Virus record (IMG/VR): IMGVR_UViG_3300027878_000012
Location: 1 to 29,351 of that record
Direction: 5' to 3' (one strand)
DNA: 29,351 bases
Origin: a virus
Shown piece after piece: positions 3,476 to 25,718 of the stretch; within the stretch, counting starts at the first letter, position 1, and every line of letters begins with the position of its first letter. The position numbers were made by a program, and so were the translations under genes. Under the pieces are notes generated by a model. The model saw only the letters and a program-made list of their open reading frames with translations, made no database searches and was not told where the DNA came from.

Positions 3476-3806
3476 GACCACGGTCAGGATCGTGACAAAC
3501 CGCATCCCTGCGATCAGCGCGGCCATCAAGCCTCTGGTGGCCGCCGAGGTGCAGAAGGCCGCTTTCCAGATCGAGGCACGGGCGAAGGCCGTGGTGGCTG
3601 TGGACACGGGCACGCTGCGCCGCTCTATCACGACCGTCATGAGCAATGGAGGGCTGACGGGGGTGGTCGGGCCGAGCGTGTTCTACGGCAAGTTTATCGA
3701 GTTCGGGACGCGGCGCATGGGTGCTAGGCCGTTCATGCGGCCGGCTGCGGAGGCCGTGATGCCGGGCTTTGCGGCGGCTGTCGCGGCTGCGTTGGGCAAG
3801 CTCTGA
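3468..3806 (+). CDS. HK97 gp10-like neck/tail component
   Basis: 112 residues from ATG 3468. The features of the HK97-gp10 family are clear: an N-terminal amphipathic helix, VAVDTGTLRRSI in the middle, and the signature YGKFIEFGTRRMGARPFMRPA near the C-terminus followed by a final helix. Family members act at the head-tail junction or in tail completion. Overlaps on both sides tie it to the neck operon. Confidence 0.8.
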   Translation: MAKTTVRIVTNRIPAISAAIKPLVAAEVQKAAFQIEARAKAVVAVDTGTLRRSITTVMSNGGLTGVVGPSVFYGKFIEFGTRRMGARPFMRPAAEAVMPGFAAAVAAALGKL

Positions 3807-4228
3807 TGCTGGAAGGGCAGCGCGTTGCGTCGTTCGTGTGGGACACGCTGGCCGCCGATACGGGCGCTGGCGGCGTCTCCACGCTCGTGGGCGGGCGCAT
3901 CTACCGTGACCGTGTTCCCCAGACTGCCGCGCTCCCGGCCATCACCGTGACGCTGGTGTCTGCCGTCGATACCAACACCATCGGCGGCCGGCGCGTCAAG
4001 CAGAACGTGCTGGTGGACGTGCGGGTCGTGGCCGATGGCTCGGGCTACCCCAACGCCCTCGCGGACCGCATTGACACGGTGCTCCAGAACGCTGGCGGCA
4101 CCAAGAGCAGCGTCGTCGTCGTGGAACTGGTCCGCGAACAGGTGACGGCGTTCATAGAGGATGACGCCGGCAAGTCGTACAGCCACGTCGTCGCTACGTA
4201 CAGGAGTCCGGCGTACTACGCCGCGTGA
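3806..4228 (+). CDS. Tail terminator / tail completion protein (DUF3168-like)
   Basis: 140 residues from ATG 3806, which shares its A with the previous stop (TGATG). The plan matches tail terminators of the gpU/DUF3168 type: an N-terminal helix (LVGGRIYRDRVPQTAALPAITV), alternating strands (NVLVDVRVVADG), a helix (YPNALADRIDTVLQNA) and a final strand (SHVVATYRSPAYY). The terminator caps the tail tube and joins it to the head. It lies directly before the tail-tube gene, as expected. Confidence 0.7.
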   Translation: MLEGQRVASFVWDTLAADTGAGGVSTLVGGRIYRDRVPQTAALPAITVTLVSAVDTNTIGGRRVKQNVLVDVRVVADGSGYPNALADRIDTVLQNAGGTKSSVVVVELVREQVTAFIEDDAGKSYSHVVATYRSPAYYAA

Positions 4229-4245: not shown

Positions 4246-5244
4246 ATGCCTGATCGGATGATTGTCCAAGAGGCGGTACAGATCGGGGTGGAATCCACCG
4301 CCGGCACTGCCGTTGTCCCCACGATCCAGTTCGGCGGGCTGTCCGTCGATATTGACACGGAGATTGAGTTCTCAGAGTTCAAGCCGGCCGGGCAACTGGT
4401 CAACTCTATCGTGGCCCCGCTCCGCGAGTGGTCTTCGGGCGAGTTGAGCGGATTTCCGACCTACACCGAACTGCCCTACGTCCTCTCTAACCTGTTCGGC
4501 GCGGCGGTCATCACCACGCCGACCGGCGCGACCCTTGCGCGACAGTGGAAGTGGACGCCCTCGGCAACCGTGCCGTGGACGCCAAAGACCTGGACGATCC
4601 GGCGTGGCGTCTCGGGCGACACGGCCGAGCAAGCGGACTACCTGCTGCTCTCAGGGCTGATGCTGTCGTTCTCGCGGACTGACGACCCCGAGATCGGCGG
4701 CGACCTGTTCGCGCGACGGTTCGACTACGCGGCGACGATGGCGACCACCGGCATCACCAGCCCGGCGCTCATCCCGATCCTGCCTGACCAGATCGACGTG
4801 TTTCTGGACGCGACAGGCGCCGGGCTGGGCGGCACCCAACTGACGCGAGAATTCAGCTACGCGCTGGAGATCTCGGATATGTTCGGAAACATCTGGCCGC
4901 TGAACAGCAGCCTGACATCGTTCGCCGCGCACAGCGTCCAGGCTCCTGACGCGGGCGTGACGCTCCAGCTTGGCAACGACACGGCCGGGCGGGCGATGGT
5001 CACGAACATGCGCGCCGGCTCGACGGTGTTCGTGCGGCTGCGGGCGCAGGGCGCAGCCAGCAGCATCGAGTCGGGGCAGCGGTACTCGCTGATTATCGAC
5101 ACGGCCCTCAAAGTGGTGGACTCGCCATCACGCGACGATCAGGAGGGGCTATCAACGCTGGAGTGGTCGCTGCGGTCGGTGTATGACGCGACCTGGGCAA
5201 AGTGGTTGGAAGTTACTCTAGTGACGACAACTACAGGGCTATGA
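4246..5244 (+). CDS. Major tail protein (tail tube)
   Basis: 332 residues from ATG 4246, with a GAGAGGGG ribosome site upstream. It is a long beta-rich protein with the N-terminal pattern VQIGVESTAGTAVVPT, common in tube proteins of this layout. SGLMLSFSRTDDPEIGGDLFARR and the C-terminal TLEWSLRSVYDATWAKWLEVTLV also fit a tube-forming beta sandwich. It is larger than the usual 200 residues, so it may carry an extra surface domain. It lies between the terminator and chaperone genes and ends 5 bases before the convergent minus-strand gene, with no terminator between them. Confidence 0.75.
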   Translation: MPDRMIVQEAVQIGVESTAGTAVVPTIQFGGLSVDIDTEIEFSEFKPAGQLVNSIVAPLREWSSGELSGFPTYTELPYVLSNLFGAAVITTPTGATLARQWKWTPSATVPWTPKTWTIRRGVSGDTAEQADYLLLSGLMLSFSRTDDPEIGGDLFARRFDYAATMATTGITSPALIPILPDQIDVFLDATGAGLGGTQLTREFSYALEISDMFGNIWPLNSSLTSFAAHSVQAPDAGVTLQLGNDTAGRAMVTNMRAGSTVFVRLRAQGAASSIESGQRYSLIIDTALKVVDSPSRDDQEGLSTLEWSLRSVYDATWAKWLEVTLVTTTTGL

Positions 5245-12958: not shown

Positions 12959-13158
12959 TGAGCCGCCGAGGACAGCGGTTCCTGGGCTGCCCCGACTGCG
13001 GCAAGCGGGGTGTCTATTATCAGTCTGGTAGCCATCAGGACGGCGGCTACCAGTGTCGCTACTGCGACTTCTGGGTCTACGAGATAACGACCGACCGCAT
13101 AGACAAGTTGAATACGGAGCGCCTGAACGCGGCGAATCCTGAGATGGCACGCGCATGA
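12958..13158 (+). CDS. Zinc-ribbon protein
   Basis: 66 residues from ATG 12958, coupled to the previous stop. CPDCGKRG (N-terminal) and CRYCDFW (residues about 32-38) form a CxxC...CxxC zinc ribbon of about 20 residues. The C-terminal helix (DRIDKLNTERLNAANPEMA) is charged. It shares ATGA with the next gene, a helix-turn-helix protein, and may act with it. A GTG at 12955 is an alternative start. Confidence 0.65.
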   Translation: MSRRGQRFLGCPDCGKRGVYYQSGSHQDGGYQCRYCDFWVYEITTDRIDKLNTERLNAANPEMARA

Positions 13159-13382
13159 CGCCTGACGAACTCCGCACGCGCCGCAAGGCCCTCCGCTTCA
13201 GCCAGCAAGGCCTGGCCGAGGCGCTCGGCGTGACTCAGCACACCGTCAGCCGGTGGGAAGAAGGCAAGATAGCACTGACAGCGCCGCGATCCTTCTGGCT
13301 CGACGCCGAGATGAAGCGGATCGAGCGGAAGGCGCACCCGCCGAAGCGCCGCGCCCGCCACCAGGAGAACGAAGCACCATGA
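13155..13382 (+). CDS. XRE-type helix-turn-helix regulator (Cro-like)
   Basis: 75 residues from ATG 13155. The HTH is clear: TPDELRTRRKALRFSQQGLA, EALGVTQHTVSRWEEGKIAL, with the recognition helix around TQHTVSRW (residues about 28-36). The tail is basic (KRRARHQENE). Size and position suit a Cro- or repressor-type regulator of the rightward operon. It is a candidate binder of the CTACG operators upstream, as is the leftward XRE gene at 14223-14408; the sequence does not decide which. Confidence 0.85.
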   Translation: MTPDELRTRRKALRFSQQGLAEALGVTQHTVSRWEEGKIALTAPRSFWLDAEMKRIERKAHPPKRRARHQENEAP

Positions 13383-14222: not shown

Positions 14223-14408
14223 TCAGGCCGGGGCGCGCTCCAGCCTCGACAGTTCGCGCTCCAGCCACGCGGCGCGCAGGTGCGTGATGGAGACCTTCCC
14301 GGACTCCCACCGCGCGTAGTTCTGCTGGCTGACGCCCGTCGCGTCGGCCACCTGCTGCTGCGTGAGATGGAGCGCCTTGCGGCGCTCCCGTAGTTCTATG
14401 TTGGTCAT
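14223..14408 (-). CDS. XRE-type helix-turn-helix repressor candidate
   Basis: 61 residues on the minus strand, sharing ATGA with the gene before it. The HTH is complete: NIELRERRKALHLTQQQVAD, ATGVSQQNYARWESGKVSI, then ITHLRAAWLERELSRLERA as the final helix. It closely resembles the rightward HTH protein at 13155 in layout, suggesting a repressor/anti-repressor pair working on shared sites. It is the last gene of a three-gene leftward operon. Confidence 0.8.
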   Translation of the reverse strand: MTNIELRERRKALHLTQQQVADATGVSQQNYARWESGKVSITHLRAAWLERELSRLERAPA

Positions 14409-17162: not shown

Positions 17163-17341
17163 ACCCTCACGAGGCGTTCTGCCCAGACTGCCACGCAACG
17201 ATCTGCCTGCGGTGCGTCGCGCTCGACACGCGGTCTGACCCAAGCGGCTTGGACGGCTGCTCGGACTGCGCGCGCTTCATGACGCGCATACGTCGCGCTC
17301 GGCGCGACCACATCAAAAAGGACCACGCCGATGGCGGTTGA
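17159..17341 (+). CDS. Zinc-finger protein
   Basis: 60 residues from GTG 17159. CPDCHATICLRCVA (residues 8-21) and CSDCARF (34-40) provide two to three Cys pairs, followed by a basic helix (FMTRIRRARRDHIKKDH), suitable for nucleic acid contact. Coupled to the methyltransferase by GTGA and overlapping the next gene by 11 bases. Confidence 0.6.
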   Translation: MNPHEAFCPDCHATICLRCVALDTRSDPSGLDGCSDCARFMTRIRRARRDHIKKDHADGG

Positions 17342-17831
17342 GTTAGCACAGATCCCCGCCGAGCGGACCTTTCGCGGCCCTGGCTGCTCGACGGACTGCC
17401 GCGTGATTCGCGCCCTTGTGCCCACTGTGTTCGGGCGCACCGAGTTGATGCTGCACGACCCTAGCAGCCACGAGGCTTACGGCATGTCGCAAGGCGCGGA
17501 GTTCGGCGCAGGGTTTCACGACGTGGAAACCGGGCCGCTGCTGGTGCGGCTGGCCGCTGGCGAGGCGTTCGTGGATGGAAAACTGATCCTCCTGACGCCG
17601 AAAGAATGGGAGCTGCTCAGTCTGCTGGCCCGCCGCCTTGATAAGGTGGTACTGAACACCGATACCCTCGCCCTGATCTGGCCGTGGTACGAACAGCAAA
17701 CTGCGCCGCATCCGCGCCACATTTTGCGCGTCACGCTGTCACGGGTCCGCGCCAAACTCGGCCCTGCCGCCTACCTGCTGGAAACCAGAGTCGGCCGAGG
17801 GCTGCTCCTGCGGCGCGAGGCGACCCTGTGA
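17331..17831 (+). CDS. Orphan winged-helix regulator (OmpR/PhoB C-domain type)
   Basis: 166 residues from ATG 17331. Residues about 65-165 match the Trans_reg_C winged helix of response regulators: LLVRLAAGEAFVDGKLILLT, TPKEWELLSLLARRLDKVV, then HILRVTLSRVRAKLG as recognition helix, then the wing LLETRVGRGLLLRRE. There is no receiver domain; the first 60 residues are unlike one and contain two Cys (CSTDC). A phage regulator using this fold without phosphorylation is uncommon. It may activate middle or late genes. Family call is firm, role inferred. Confidence 0.8.
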   Translation: MAVELAQIPAERTFRGPGCSTDCRVIRALVPTVFGRTELMLHDPSSHEAYGMSQGAEFGAGFHDVETGPLLVRLAAGEAFVDGKLILLTPKEWELLSLLARRLDKVVLNTDTLALIWPWYEQQTAPHPRHILRVTLSRVRAKLGPAAYLLETRVGRGLLLRREATL

Positions 17832-19322: not shown

Positions 19323-19339
19323 TAGACATGGGGGGTGTC

Positions 19340-20077
19340 ATGAACAACGACGTTTACGAGCGACTAGCGGACCGATTCCCGGCCGATGCGCACAAGACGC
19401 GCAAGCAGGGCAGTAGCGATCTCGTCTACGTGACCGGCGAGATGGTGATAGAGCGCCTGAATCTGGTTCTTGGCTTTGACGGCTGGTCATTCGAGGTCAA
19501 GGCCGTGACGGTGCTCGAAGACGAAGTATGGGCCAGCGGCAGACTGACGGTCTATACGACGGACCGGACCATTGTCAGGGAACAGACCGGCGGCCAGATC
19601 ATCAACCGGATGCGCGGCACTCCGCCGGTCCTGGCGCAGGCAGCCGAAGGCGACCGTCCGGCGGTTGAAGCGCGGCCAGCGGTCAAGGGCAGCATCATCG
19701 AGATCGCCAACGACATCAAGGGCGCGATCACGGATTGCTTGAAGAAGTGCGCCACGCTGATTGGCGTCGGAGCGTACCTGTACGACGGAGACGAGCGACG
19801 CGAAGTGCAGGCCGAGATGCGGGCGCAGTCACGCGGCGGTAACAAGCCGACTGCGGGACCGCCTGCTACTACTGACGATGCGCCCAAGCCGATGAAAACG
19901 AAGGCGCAACTGGTGGACGACCTGAACCGAGGGATCGCGATGGCGAAGACGCTCGGTCTGGACCCGGCCGACGTTGACGCCACCACGATGGATCGCGTCT
20001 CCATACAGGAGGTGATTTCCGCTCTGGCGAAGCAAATCAAGATCGTCAAGGCTGCGACTGCTGAGGCTGCGTCATGA
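19340..20077 (+). CDS. Rad52-like single-strand annealing protein
   Basis: 245 residues from ATG 19340. This start is chosen because the promoter puts the RNA 5' end near 19329 and GGGGGG (19330-19335) precedes it; ATG 19328 would leave no leader. Rad52 features: VYVTGEMVIERLNLVLGFDGWSFEV, the strand VWASGRLTVYT, a beta hairpin, then the helix IIEIANDIKGAITDCLKKCATLIGVGAYLYDG, which is diagnostic. The C-terminal region is flexible, then helical. It should anneal complementary single strands during recombination. Forms a coupled unit with the primase-type gene. Residues about 150-180 are disordered. Confidence 0.8.
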   Translation: MNNDVYERLADRFPADAHKTRKQGSSDLVYVTGEMVIERLNLVLGFDGWSFEVKAVTVLEDEVWASGRLTVYTTDRTIVREQTGGQIINRMRGTPPVLAQAAEGDRPAVEARPAVKGSIIEIANDIKGAITDCLKKCATLIGVGAYLYDGDERREVQAEMRAQSRGGNKPTAGPPATTDDAPKPMKTKAQLVDDLNRGIAMAKTLGLDPADVDATTMDRVSIQEVISALAKQIKIVKAATAEAAS

Positions 20078-20775
20078 GCGTCGCTTACGAGTACATCGAC
20101 CCGATGGAGTGTATGCATTGCTTCACGGGGCAAGGCCCGCATCAAGAATGGCACGGCACGAGAGCCGACTACCTGAAGATCGGTGACGAGTTGACCGCGC
20201 GGGCGCGCGCGAGGAACCGCGACGAAGTGCGGTTCATGACGGACGAGATTCTGGTCGGTTACGGGCAGCGGCTACGGCGGCAACTCGCCGTAGCCGCTGC
20301 TGACGGGTGGGACGAGATCGCCTCGGGGCTGGTGGCCGAGTGGCTCGAGGACGTGGAGAAGGAGTGGCGGTGGCGCACTCGCGCCGCGTCGCTTGGGTCC
20401 GTTGCCGTGCAGCGCGAGGGCGCATCCTGGGCTGACCGCGTTGACACCATCAAGCGCATGACGGACCTGTCTCTGCTGATTGCCTACGAGGCGCGTGACG
20501 CGCGGCCTGTCGGTACGCGGGGCTGGAAGTGCGCGTGCCCGTTCCACGACGACAAGACGCCCAGCCTGGACATTGACACGCGGAAACAGGTGTGGCTCTG
20601 CCGTGCCTGCGGCGTGGGCGGTGACGCCATCACCTACGCCGAGCTGAAGTACAGCCTGTCGTTCGCGGAGGCCGTGAGACACCTGGAGGACCGGCTCGGG
20701 ATAAAGCCGCCGCCAGAGGCACGAGCAATCCCGAGAGGAGGCCGGAGGCCGCTCGGAGCGGCGATCCCGGGGTGA
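20074..20775 (+). CDS. CHC2 zinc-finger primase-type protein
   Basis: 233 residues from ATG 20074 (ATGA overlap). Residues about 145-205 match the zinc domain of DnaG-type primases: CACPFHDDKTPSLDI with C155 and H158, then WLCRACGVGGDAITYAEL with C176 and C179, then SLSFAEAVRHLEDRLG. The N-terminal 130 residues are a separate helical domain with C13, C16 and H23. There is no Toprim domain, so it is not a full primase. It may recognise DNA for the ATPase encoded next. Confidence 0.8.
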   Translation: MSVAYEYIDPMECMHCFTGQGPHQEWHGTRADYLKIGDELTARARARNRDEVRFMTDEILVGYGQRLRRQLAVAAADGWDEIASGLVAEWLEDVEKEWRWRTRAASLGSVAVQREGASWADRVDTIKRMTDLSLLIAYEARDARPVGTRGWKCACPFHDDKTPSLDIDTRKQVWLCRACGVGGDAITYAELKYSLSFAEAVRHLEDRLGIKPPPEARAIPRGGRRPLGAAIPG

Positions 20776-22154
20776 GCATGGAAGACGCCCTGACCTACGA
20801 CGAGTCTGCGCTCCCGACGCTGCCGGGGGCCGATGTTGACGTGCTGGAGCCGTTCGGCCTCGGCTGGCGCTGGAAGTGGCGGCGCGACAAGACCTGGATA
20901 CGGATGACCTTTCGAGGAATGCGGAAGGGAACCAGCGGACCAAATGCGGAGATCACCGTTGAAGGGGGCGTGCCGCAAGTCGGTATCAAGGGCGTGCTGA
21001 CCGTCGAACGGTTGTCACTTGGGGACGGTCGCGGGCGGGCTAATCTCGCTAACCGTTTGAGCCAGCGGACGGGTGAGGGAGACGACGCGCCAGTGTCGTG
21101 GCGCAACCTACTGGACGGCATTTGCTCGCGCATCCTGAAGGAGCAGCAGCGCGGGCCGGAAGTCCGCACCATCGGTACCTCCGACGAGAAGGCGACGAAC
21201 TGGCTGATCGAGGGACTGGTCGAGGAACACCAGACCACGTCGGTCTACGGAGACGGCGAAGTCGGCAAGTCATGGCTCGGGCTAGCTGCCTGCGTCTCGT
21301 TGGCGTCGGGCGTCGAGATCATCCCTGGCTGGAAACCGACCCGACAGGTGCGTTCGCTCTACCTGGACTGGGAGACGGACCACGAGACGCTGAACAAGCG
21401 CGTCAGGATGATCTGCCGAGGGGCCGGCATTCCGTACACACCGATCAGCTACGTCTCGCCGGATGGACCCCTGGCCGACCAGGTCGAGTGGCTGCTTGAG
21501 CGGGTCCACGACGAAGACATCGAGTTCATCGTCGTGGACTCCGTCGAGGCGGCAATGGCCGGCAGCAAGAGCGATGGCGGCGACATGAACGACGCTGCCG
21601 CAAAGGTCAATCAGGTGCTGCGGAAGATCGGGAAGTCGGCGGTCCTGGTCGATCACGTCAACGCCGTCAACGCCCAGTCGAAGGGCCTGGCGGGCAAAGC
21701 TTACGGTTCCATATTCAAGCGGAATTGGGTTCGCATTAGCTTTGAGGTCAAGCGCGTCCATGATGGAACGGACGGCGAGAAGCATGTCGGCGTGTACTGC
21801 ACCAAGCGTAACAACGGGCCGCGCTATGACGCCCGTGGGCTGCGCTGGACGATCAACGAGGAGTCTACTTCGTGGTCAGACGAGGCCATCAGCGAACCGG
21901 AATTGGCGGCGGCGTTGCCCGTGAAGCGGCGCATGGAAATCTGCCTCAACGAGGAGTCGCCGCTGTCGCAGACCACGCTCGCGGAACGGTGCGAGACGAC
22001 TCTCACCAATGTTCGGGTGGAATTGTCGCGGGACAAGGGGAAGTCGTTTCGGAAGCTCGCAAACGATCTTTGGGAGCTTGCGCCGGCCAGTCGCCCGCGC
22101 TTCGAGGTGGTCAACGCGGCTCGCGGCGACGAGGAGGAACTGCCGTGGGTGTGA
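20772..22154 (+). CDS. RecA-fold replicative ATPase (RepA/AAA_25-like)
   Basis: 460 residues from GTG 20772, coupled by GTGA; ATG 20778 is an alternative. Walker A is GDGEVGKSW at 160-168. The following strand carries LYLDWETD, Walker B-like is EFIVVDSVEAA (251-261), and VLVDHVNAV (291-299) is the sensor region. The order fits the RepA/AAA_25 helicase family used by plasmids and phages for replication. N-terminal 130 residues and C-terminal 120 are extra, the last with a winged-helix feel (LSQTTLAERCETTLTNVRVELSR). The gene ends at the repeat cluster that may be its origin. Confidence 0.75.
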   Translation: MSMEDALTYDESALPTLPGADVDVLEPFGLGWRWKWRRDKTWIRMTFRGMRKGTSGPNAEITVEGGVPQVGIKGVLTVERLSLGDGRGRANLANRLSQRTGEGDDAPVSWRNLLDGICSRILKEQQRGPEVRTIGTSDEKATNWLIEGLVEEHQTTSVYGDGEVGKSWLGLAACVSLASGVEIIPGWKPTRQVRSLYLDWETDHETLNKRVRMICRGAGIPYTPISYVSPDGPLADQVEWLLERVHDEDIEFIVVDSVEAAMAGSKSDGGDMNDAAAKVNQVLRKIGKSAVLVDHVNAVNAQSKGLAGKAYGSIFKRNWVRISFEVKRVHDGTDGEKHVGVYCTKRNNGPRYDARGLRWTINEESTSWSDEAISEPELAAALPVKRRMEICLNEESPLSQTTLAERCETTLTNVRVELSRDKGKSFRKLANDLWELAPASRPRFEVVNAARGDEEELPWV

Positions 22155-22161
22155 CCGCTCA

Positions 22162-22303
22162 GATTACAGATTCCCGATTACATGTAATTACAAGCCCGTT
22201 TTGTAATCAGGAAAGGCCGATTACAACCCGTAATTACAACCCAGGCTCTGTAATCTCATTACAAGATGGCCCTGTAATTACATGTAATCGGCCTGTTGTA
22301 ATC
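22162..22303. repeat. GATTACA/TGTAATC cluster, candidate replication origin
   Basis: About a dozen heptamers of NATTACA or TGTAATN on both strands, starting at 22162, 22176, 22183, 22186, 22202, 22219, 22232, 22249, 22257, 22273, 22276, 22283 and 22297. GATTACATGTAATTACA at 22176-22192 recurs as its perfect inverse at 22273-22289. TGTAATTACA is itself a palindrome. The stretch is AT-rich in a GC-rich genome. An iteron-like block between a RecA-fold replication ATPase and SSB is what an initiator-driven origin looks like. An open frame from GTG 22151 crosses it, but the repeats argue it is not coding. Confidence 0.65.
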
Positions 22304-22343
22304 GGCCCACTCGTTATAGGCGGTTCGGCGTCTTCACATTTCG

Positions 22344-22391
22344 CTACTAGGGCTTATAGAAAGACTACGTCTTTCCTACGTATACCCTACG
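22344..22391 (+). repeat. CTACG direct repeats and hairpin beside the origin cluster
   Basis: CTACG occurs at 22365, 22376 and 22387, exactly 11 bp apart, with a related CTACT at 22344. GAAAGAC-TAC-GTCTTTC (22359-22375) is a perfect 7-pair hairpin. CTACG is also the half-site of the operators at 12577 and 12655. Confidence 0.45.
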
Positions 22392-22420
22392 CCACCGCTG
22401 AGAAAAACTCGGAGCCGGTG

Positions 22421-22564
22421 ATGCCGCCGCGTTCGACCTTCGATGTGGTCCGCGAGCGCCAGCCGAAGTGCTGCCCCGATTGTACATCACCGCTGATAGC
22501 GCCGCTATTCGAGGGCGAATGGTGGGACTGCGCCGCCTGCGATTTTCGATGGGAGAACATCTGA
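22421..22564 (+). CDS. Small zinc-ribbon protein
   Basis: 47 residues from ATG 22421; GGAG at 22411-22414 is 6 bases upstream. CCPDCTSPLIAPLFEGEWWD plus CAACDFRW is a clean CxxC...CxxC zinc ribbon. A longer frame back to GTG 22151 would cover the repeat cluster and add 90 unlikely residues, so the short start is preferred. Coupled to SSB by TGATG and so probably co-expressed with it. Confidence 0.6.
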   Translation: MPPRSTFDVVRERQPKCCPDCTSPLIAPLFEGEWWDCAACDFRWENI

Positions 22565-22989
22565 TGTTGAACTGCTCGCTGATTGGAAACATCGGTGGCG
22601 ACTGCGAACTGAAGTACAGCGCCAGCGGGGCGGCATTCCTGAGGTTGAACGTCGCCACCAACGGCCGAGTCCGCACCCAGGCGGGCGAGTGGGAGGACCG
22701 GACCGAGTGGGTGCGCGTGACCGTGTTCGGCCAGCGCGCAGAGTCGCTGTCAACCCTGTTGAAGAAAGGCCAGCGGATCTACGTCAGCGGCCGGCTTGAG
22801 GCGCGGCCCTGGACCGGCAAAGACGGCCAGGAGAAAGCCGGCCTGGAGGTCGTCGCGGAGACGGTGGAGTTCATGAGCAGCCGGCAGGACGACGACGCCC
22901 CGCGCCAGCAGCCGGCACGGGCAGCACGGCCAGTTGCATCGGCGGTGGTGCATGACGAGCTTGAAGAGCTTGACGGGCTGCCGTTTTAG
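22564..22989 (+). CDS. ssb: Single-stranded DNA-binding protein
   Basis: 141 residues from ATG 22564, sharing its A with the preceding stop. OB-fold of bacterial type: CSLIGNIGGDCELKYSASGA, FLRLNVATNGRV, EDRTEWVRVTVFGQRAESL, LKKGQRIYVSGRLEARPW. A Gln/Ala-rich linker follows, ending in the acidic tail DELEELDGLPF, which recruits partner proteins. Acts at replication forks and in annealing with the Rad52-like protein. Alternative ATG 22549 would add five residues. Confidence 0.95.
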   Translation: MLNCSLIGNIGGDCELKYSASGAAFLRLNVATNGRVRTQAGEWEDRTEWVRVTVFGQRAESLSTLLKKGQRIYVSGRLEARPWTGKDGQEKAGLEVVAETVEFMSSRQDDDAPRQQPARAARPVASAVVHDELEELDGLPF

Positions 22990-25045: not shown

Positions 25046-25296
25046 GCAAACTGGCGTATCTGTGTGTGCGGTGCGAGGGCTGCGAGCGGGCATTGCCATT
25101 CGCGCGGATCGCGCGGATCGGCACCGCGCCGTACTGCCCGCCCTGTCACGCGGCAGCGCTGGCGTGGGAAACCCGCACGCTCGACTGTTGCGACCATCCG
25201 GCCAACGAACACAACGTTTTCGGCTGCATGATCGAGATCAAAGACGGCGCTGCCTTTTGCCCGTGCCCGCCGCCCTCACTGGCGAACCAGCCATGA
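25042..25296 (+). CDS. Cys-rich zinc protein
   Basis: 84 residues from GTG 25042. Cys pairs CVRCEGCER, YCPPCHA, LDCCDHPANEH and FCPCPPP. The last two resemble the C..H..NEH...C element of small phage zinc proteins. Coupled by GTGA and ATGA. It may bind nucleic acid or protein; unknown. Confidence 0.55.
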   Translation: MSKLAYLCVRCEGCERALPFARIARIGTAPYCPPCHAAALAWETRTLDCCDHPANEHNVFGCMIEIKDGAAFCPCPPPSLANQP

Positions 25297-25718
25297 CCGG
25301 CCCTCGGCGCACGAGCAACGGCGTGGCCGCGACGCGCAGGGCGGGAGTTGGCCCAGGATCGCGCACAGCGGCCCCAGGAGCCGCCAAACTGCCACGGCAG
25401 GCAGAAAAGGACTGGCAGGCCACGGTGCTGGCCTACGCGCGCCTCATGGGCTGGCGCGTCTGGCACGACGTAGCCACCAACACACCGCGCCGCTGCGGCT
25501 CATGCGGGGCCGTCCGTCAGACCCCGCGCAACGTTGCTGGCTGGCCCGATCTGGTTTTGATCCGGCGGCCCGACATCGTGTTCGCCGAGTTGAAGCGCGA
25601 CGGCGAGCATCCAAGCCCCGCGCAACAAGCGTGGATTGACGAACTGCGCGCCTGCGGGATGCGCGTTTACGTGTGGCCCCCGGCCGCCTGGGCTGAGGTT
25701 GAGGAGGTACTACGCTGA
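25293..25718 (+). CDS. VRR-NUC nuclease
   Basis: 141 residues from ATG 25293 (ATGA overlap). The VRR-NUC core runs from residue 36: QAEKDWQATVLAYARLMGWR, with E38, then VAGWPDLVLIRRPDIVFAEL with GWPD (83-86) and ELK (99-101), then PSPAQQAWIDELRACG. These give the E-D-ExK-Q catalytic layout of this PD-(D/E)xK nuclease group, which acts on branched DNA or flaps. An extra CGSC (68-71) may bind zinc. With Rad52-like protein and SSB it forms a recombination set, although it is 4.9 kb away. Confidence 0.88.
   Translation: MTGPRRTSNGVAATRRAGVGPGSRTAAPGAAKLPRQAEKDWQATVLAYARLMGWRVWHDVATNTPRRCGSCGAVRQTPRNVAGWPDLVLIRRPDIVFAELKRDGEHPSPAQQAWIDELRACGMRVYVWPPAAWAEVEEVLR

Follow-up and report, generated by a model that had tools for sequence, protein, structure and literature searches.

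A compact array of short repeats lies directly behind a RecA-fold ATPase gene in the phage DNA analysed here, and from sequence comparison we propose, with a probability of roughly two in three, that this array is the initiator-binding part of a phage replication origin, read by the upstream RepA-like ATPase through its C-terminal winged helix. Computation yielded the array itself, its position, the statistics that tie it to the ATPase and to the helix-turn-helix (HTH) of that protein, and the predicted fold. The whole stretch of DNA that was analysed (the window, below) is a linear virus record from IMG/VR, 29,351 bases long and with 66% GC.

The repeat array and its surroundings

Word counting identified 13 TGTAAT/ATTACA hexamers (6 forward and 7 reverse) within the 142 bp from 22162 to 22303, and zero copies in the remainder of the 29,351-base window. 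In 20,000 first-order Markov sequences of the same stretch, the corresponding count averaged 0.2 and did not exceed 4. Twelve of the 13 copies extend to the full heptamer TGTAATY/RATTACA, the remaining one being CATTACA, and the AT content of the stretch is 59% compared with 34% for the window, in agreement with the dozen or more 7-base units in about 140 AT-rich bases described in an initial annotation of this DNA. The AT richness sits within the repeats themselves, and the AT content of the arrays in relatives varies. A 17-bp inverted repeat, reported as perfect in that annotation, has exactly matching arms at 22176–22192 (+ strand, GATTACATGTAATTACA) and 22273–22289 (− strand), and forms the core of a 49-nt inverted repeat with 80% complementarity (22162–22210 on the + strand and 22255–22303 on the − strand). 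The latter can fold into a long stem, and folding of the array as single-stranded DNA gave such a stem with z = −8.5 relative to shuffled sequences. The arrangement is more irregular than the palindromic layout claimed initially: the heptamers occur in both orientations with uneven spacing, some being fused as TGTAATTACA. The regularity of iterons (mainly direct repeats of ~20 bp, evenly spaced) is absent, the units of the window being 7 bp long and of mixed orientation. No match to the exact 17-mer of the inverted repeat was found among viral contigs, and a search of Rfam returned no meaningful match.

The array begins 8 bp 3′ of the stop codon of the ATPase gene (20772–22154, + strand), whose product matches AAA_25 in Pfam and is our proposed initiator-helicase. 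Upstream on the same strand lie genes for a Rad52-type single-strand annealing protein of the same operon (19328–20077) and a CHC2 zinc-finger (DnaG-type) protein (20074–20775), both recognized by Pfam. The array had been placed directly after the ATPase gene, which is the case, and before the gene for the single-strand DNA-binding protein SSB (22564–22989, + strand), from which it is in fact separated by a small Zn-ribbon-like ORF with no Pfam match (22418–22564, + strand). A deoxyribosyltransferase-like protein is also encoded downstream. In the non-coding flank at 22304–22417, TTATAG occurs twice and GAAAGAC-TAC-GTCTTTC forms a small hairpin; it is possible that this flank is a weak counterpart (fold z = −1.96) of the CTATAG/CTTTAG-centred hairpins of relatives described below. 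An ORF at 21872–22564 (+ strand, frame +2) is open through the entire array, since the TAA triplets of the forward units are all read in the other two frames, and this open frame is probably due to chance. At the other end of the record, the first bases of the window look like the end of a major capsid protein gene, from which gene order would place the terminase and portal genes beyond the left end. Two similar small HTH_3 proteins are encoded ~1 kb apart on opposite strands (13155–13382, +; 14223–14408, −), and the gene at 17331–17831 encodes a phage protein whose only Pfam match is a C-terminal DNA-binding domain of the OmpR type (Trans_reg_C).

In the AlphaFold2 model of the 460-residue ATPase (pLDDT 89.6), an N-terminal beta domain is followed by a RecA-like core and then by the C-terminal winged helix, predicted at residues 384–436 (~21921–22079). 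When modelled alone, the last domain gave a pLDDT of 86.7, and its fold matches were the winged helices of MarR, ArsR, DtxR and Zalpha, each of them weak, as is usual for so small a fold. Fold comparison of the ATPase matched RSF1010 RepA (1olo/1g8y) with Z ~20, tied with DnaB and RAD51, and PDB profile and fold searches with the whole protein returned general RecA-fold proteins only. A prim-pol domain was not matched in the ATPase by Pfam, AlphaFold2 or fold search.

Arrays behind related ATPase genes

Relatives of the ATPase were gathered by protein alone, giving 80 loci from viral contigs and 4 from cellular genome assemblies; no close relatives were detected by single-protein scan of the viral contigs. 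Homology to the relatives is full-length, and the closest of them (L183), with an ATPase 41% identical to that of the window, is placed as its sister in the ATPase tree. We used a motif-blind test that takes the 6- or 7-base word most repeated over both strands within the 300 bp spanning and following the ATPase stop, and called an array where there were at least 5 copies with a shuffle p ≤ 0.01; up to 30 control windows were scored per locus. A significant short-word array was found right behind the ATPase stop at 23 of the 63 non-redundant loci (window included), compared with ~0.6 expected from shuffles, and at each of these 23 loci the array outscored every control window taken from that locus. 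No significant array followed the gene at the other ~40 loci, some of which carry one near terS, with none found in others; the loci without a detected array behind the gene include one ATPase clade (L200, L211, L213, L221 and L250). At the cellular-assembly loci (two Chloroflexi, one Bathyarchaeota and one Armatimonadota), repeats behind the ATPase were seen by eye in four of four, and two of the four passed the test.

The arrays of the relatives are intergenic, and their words vary among phages, including CGCAAC, CGTAGC, GAAAGC, CGGACA/TCGGACA, TTTAGC, CATGAC/CATGACA, GTTACA, ATCGGA and others; that of L183 is GACGCA (TGCGTC). It had been suggested that related phages be searched for the same heptamers beside this ATPase gene: the array is found in the same place, but the spelling differs, each phage group having its own word, so that the initial idea of this particular heptamer defining an origin type finds no support. 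Conservation of position together with fast-changing spelling fits a site that co-evolves with its reader. The ATPase is the only neighbour found to be constant across distant array-bearing phages; the genes adjoining it vary, and only part of these are annotated. A CHC2 domain was found in only 4 of the 28 records with such ATPases, which argues against the CHC2 protein as a reader of the origin alongside the ATPase, as had been proposed. The window CHC2 protein is probably an accessory primase part rather than a constant reader.

GC-rich hairpins recur within or beside the arrays, downstream of the ATPase, and at a number of loci (L185, L188, L251, L254, L260, L340, L341, L345 and L346) GC-rich hairpins or palindromes are centred on CTATAG, TTATAG, CTTTAG or similar sequences. 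A CTATAG/CTTTAG-like core occurs at 12 of 33 array loci as against 14 of 296 control windows. A perfect stem of at least 8 bp was present within 300 bp of the ATPase stop in 28 of 33 cases and in 31 of 296 control windows, an enrichment that is partly inflated since the inverted repeats themselves make stems, and to which we give little weight. Terminators, priming sites and extruded cruciforms are all possible roles for these hairpins.

Scanning by DNA pattern for TGTAAT arrays brought up densely packed examples, with units in both orientations, in a single phage lineage (the terL lineage), located just upstream of terS-terL (L127 5527–5746, L061 352–480 and L178 7882–8042, among others). An ATPase homologous to that of the window (E 1e-19 to 1e-31) is encoded in 7 of the 29 array-bearing records. 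When the genes of the window were compared sensitively with these records, a VRR-NUC-like nuclease was the only shared product detected other than the ATPase. The VRR-NUC-like ORF of the window lies at 25293–25718, and in terL-lineage records it is often near the ATPase gene. One clade of the ATPase tree has its array beside terS, kilobases from the ATPase gene. The words also vary among members of the lineage (CTTTAC, GTAATA, ATAACA, GTTATA and TGTAAT); in a small sample of 11 records, word similarity correlated with that of the ATPase winged helix with r 0.53 and with that of TerS with r 0.41 (p 0.008), a slight advantage for the winged helix that leaves TerS a possible reader in this lineage. 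The motif-first search had initially suggested that the arrays are packaging sites, a reading that we downgraded because the ATPase relatives found by protein carry other words behind the ATPase. The terL-lineage arrays may serve as origin, packaging site or both; our best reading is that in one lineage the origin array has been displaced to a site near terS.

A tblastn search of 50,697 cultured phages with the window ATPase gave zero matches, and searches with the ATPases of L254, L251 and L199 likewise found no close relatives. Distant relatives in cultured phages are annotated as RepA-like or helicase-primase proteins, and repeats were observed behind several of the corresponding genes (L348 ~4270–4390, L353 ~3772–3900, L354 3512–3776, L356 3533–3800 and L346 3722–3900). 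They include GCGGGACA repeats in the Escherichia Dhillonvirus phages Gluttony_ev152 and JLBYU60 (host K-12 MG1655), CGGTACA repeats with a CCTATATAGG-centred hairpin in Idiomarinaceae phage 1N2-2 and ATGTCCA repeats in Vibrio phage 1216 (p < 0.005 in each case), as well as ATAATCC repeats in Pantoea phage MED16 (p 0.01). In JLBYU60, the phage at L353, the array follows gene 50. Several of the repeat units in cultured phages end in ACA. In BcepGomr the region was similar by eye and not significant, and an array was absent at the matching place behind the distant RepA-like helicases of BFK20, vB_SenS-Ent3, K1ind2 and Acadian. The cultured phages, being distant and few, extend the pattern rather than prove it.

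Array words, the winged helix and function

If the winged helix reads the array, then words should be alike where helices are alike. For the 23 words called automatically, word similarity followed similarity of HTH residues 395–425 after removal of the ATPase core, a modest effect among sequences that are themselves related (partial Mantel r 0.287, p 0.0003), whereas the core, given the HTH, added nothing significant (p 0.12). The outcome was the same, and the effect again modest, after addition of nine loci with motifs picked by eye, which make up 9 of the resulting 32 (r 0.303, p 0.0003). With a wider span, residues 376–440, the association was weaker (p 0.08, n = 23; p 0.009, n = 32). Individual pairs illustrate this relationship. 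L209 and L254 have distant ATPases (normalized core similarity 0.25) with N-terminal domains that are barely alike, and nearly identical words (AACCGCAACA and AAGCGCAACA, with CGCAAC in common). The window and L183 have similar cores (0.50) and yet differ in the HTH (0.11) as well as in the word. Across the 23 consensus words, 13 have an ACA/TGT end, compared with 3.4 expected. A conserved intergenic array behind the ATPase gene, with a word that changes with the winged helix of the ATPase, is the expected look of an initiator-read origin. On the basis of positional conservation and of the way in which the word tracks the winged helix, the ATPase part of the earlier proposal is favoured. The replication genes around the array (those for Rad52, CHC2, the ATPase and SSB) also speak for an origin.

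From these patterns we infer binding, opening, origin function and priming as follows. The winged helix of the ATPase would bind the heptamer, in which the ACA/TGT end is conserved and the rest is variable, and the many copies in both orientations would gather ATPase subunits. The AT-rich, strongly self-complementary stretch would open, possibly extruding a stem-loop, and the helicase would load. Priming would be carried out by the CHC2 protein or another primase, and SSB, encoded two genes downstream, would coat the strands. Word and winged helix would change together, leaving each phage group with its own spelling. A broader reading, which we regard as evenly poised, is that these loci represent an undescribed and widespread class of origin in which a RepA-like RecA-fold helicase recognizes its own origin via the winged helix, by means of a private, fast-changing heptamer code with a constant ACA/TGT end, the code of each lineage being set by the recognition helix. 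Such origins are perhaps also present in archaeal and other mobile elements. Our searches of the open-access literature returned no account of arrays like these following the genes of RepA-like helicases in phages.

Winged helices are typical of repressors, and the array might instead be an autoregulatory site at which the ATPase tunes or stops transcription of the replication operon, with the hairpins as terminators. That the arrays follow the end of a gene and frequently come with a GC-rich hairpin (at the frequencies given above, inflated by the repeats) is consistent with such control. However, a dozen or more sites exceed the need of an operator, the reader would be a helicase-type motor, and the terL-lineage array is kilobases from the ATPase gene, beside terS; we therefore consider operon control unlikely. 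The same position just upstream of terS-terL, and the correlation of the word with TerS in that lineage, would suit a packaging site (pac or cosB) that is read by the terminase small subunit and resembles the pac site of P1, with its hexamers, in layout, and the terminase of the window lies off the contig. This reading appears distinctly improbable, given that terminase genes were not found in the vicinity of the window array, that adjacency to terS holds for the terL lineage only, that the neighbour shared by distant phages is the ATPase, and that the word tracks the ATPase winged helix better than it does TerS.

Comparably small weight can be given to binding of the array by a separate protein (a small phage HTH protein, a partition-type protein or a host factor) travelling with the ATPase gene. 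RSF1010, discussed below, offers a precedent for such a division of labour, and the neighbours of the ATPase vary and are not all annotated. Against this, no neighbour but the ATPase was found to be constant, CHC2 included, and the word follows the HTH of the ATPase itself beyond the core. The open frame across the array might be taken to indicate a coding region, or the repeats a chance or low-complexity feature, but the shuffles never approach the observed count and relatives keep an intergenic array with unrelated words, so that we find this explanation scarcely credible. GC skew, put forward in the initial annotation as a check on the origin, shows no inflection at the array, either in the window, where cumulative skew climbs steadily through it, or in the average of relatives; all of these records are fragments.

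If the array is an origin read by the ATPase, origins would be predictable from sequence in many uncultured phages for which no replication start has been established, and more than 20 pairs of origin word and recognition helix would make up a natural series in which co-evolution of the two could be followed. A RecA-fold hexameric helicase of the DnaB/RepA type would then itself bind the origin as initiator, whereas in other systems this task falls to separate loaders or initiators, or to SF3 helicases. The layout also occurs in cultured E. coli, Vibrio and Idiomarinaceae phages, which makes the proposal readily testable.

Comparison with known systems

The window shares with iteron origins in general a short-repeat array beside a putative initiator gene. 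The pac site of phage P1 is ~150 bp long, carries clusters of hexamer repeats on both sides and is read by a terminase subunit. The window array likewise consists of short-word clusters over a similar length, but has no terminase gene near it. In phage P4, the helicase of the alpha protein is of the SF3 type. Alpha combines in one protein a motor and a winged helix that reads the origin repeats (PMC4234260), as proposed here for the window ATPase. The two differ in that alpha is a TOPRIM primase fused to an SF3 helicase, whereas the window has a RecA-fold motor and a separate CHC2 gene.

In protein type, the nearest systems are RSF1010 RepA and the RepA-like helicase GP46 of lactococcal phage F13 (PMC8965321). 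The oriV of RSF1010 (IncQ) resembles the window in its repeats and hairpins; its hexameric RecA-fold helicase, RepA, is among the fold matches of the window ATPase, level with DnaB and RAD51. The RSF1010 iterons are long, in contrast to the mixed-orientation 7-bp units of the window, and they are read by a separate protein, RepC, with RepA unwinding the DNA (PMC4234260), whereas in the window the winged helix is fused to the ATPase. No RepC-like gene was recognized among the scanned neighbours in the window, the record lacking terminal parts of the genome.

In layout, the Sulfolobus plasmid pRN1 offers the closest precedent. Its replication protein has a winged helix at the end, and its origin, a stem-loop, follows directly behind the gene for that protein; the origin element is functional when moved elsewhere in pRN1 and is described as being without iterons (PMC4234260). 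A similar stem-loop has been noted behind the replication gene of Bordetella phage BIP-1, for which a pRN1-type origin is proposed (PMC4234260). The Rep protein of pRN1 consists of a prim-pol and an SF3 helicase, whereas the window encodes a RecA-fold AAA_25 ATPase, and the dense heptamer array of the window contrasts with the iteron-free element of the plasmid. The two are alike in that the window element also lies directly (8 bp) behind the replication ATPase gene and is capable of forming a stem-loop (z = −8.5), and in that the ATPase, according to AlphaFold2 models and fold matches, likewise ends in a winged helix.
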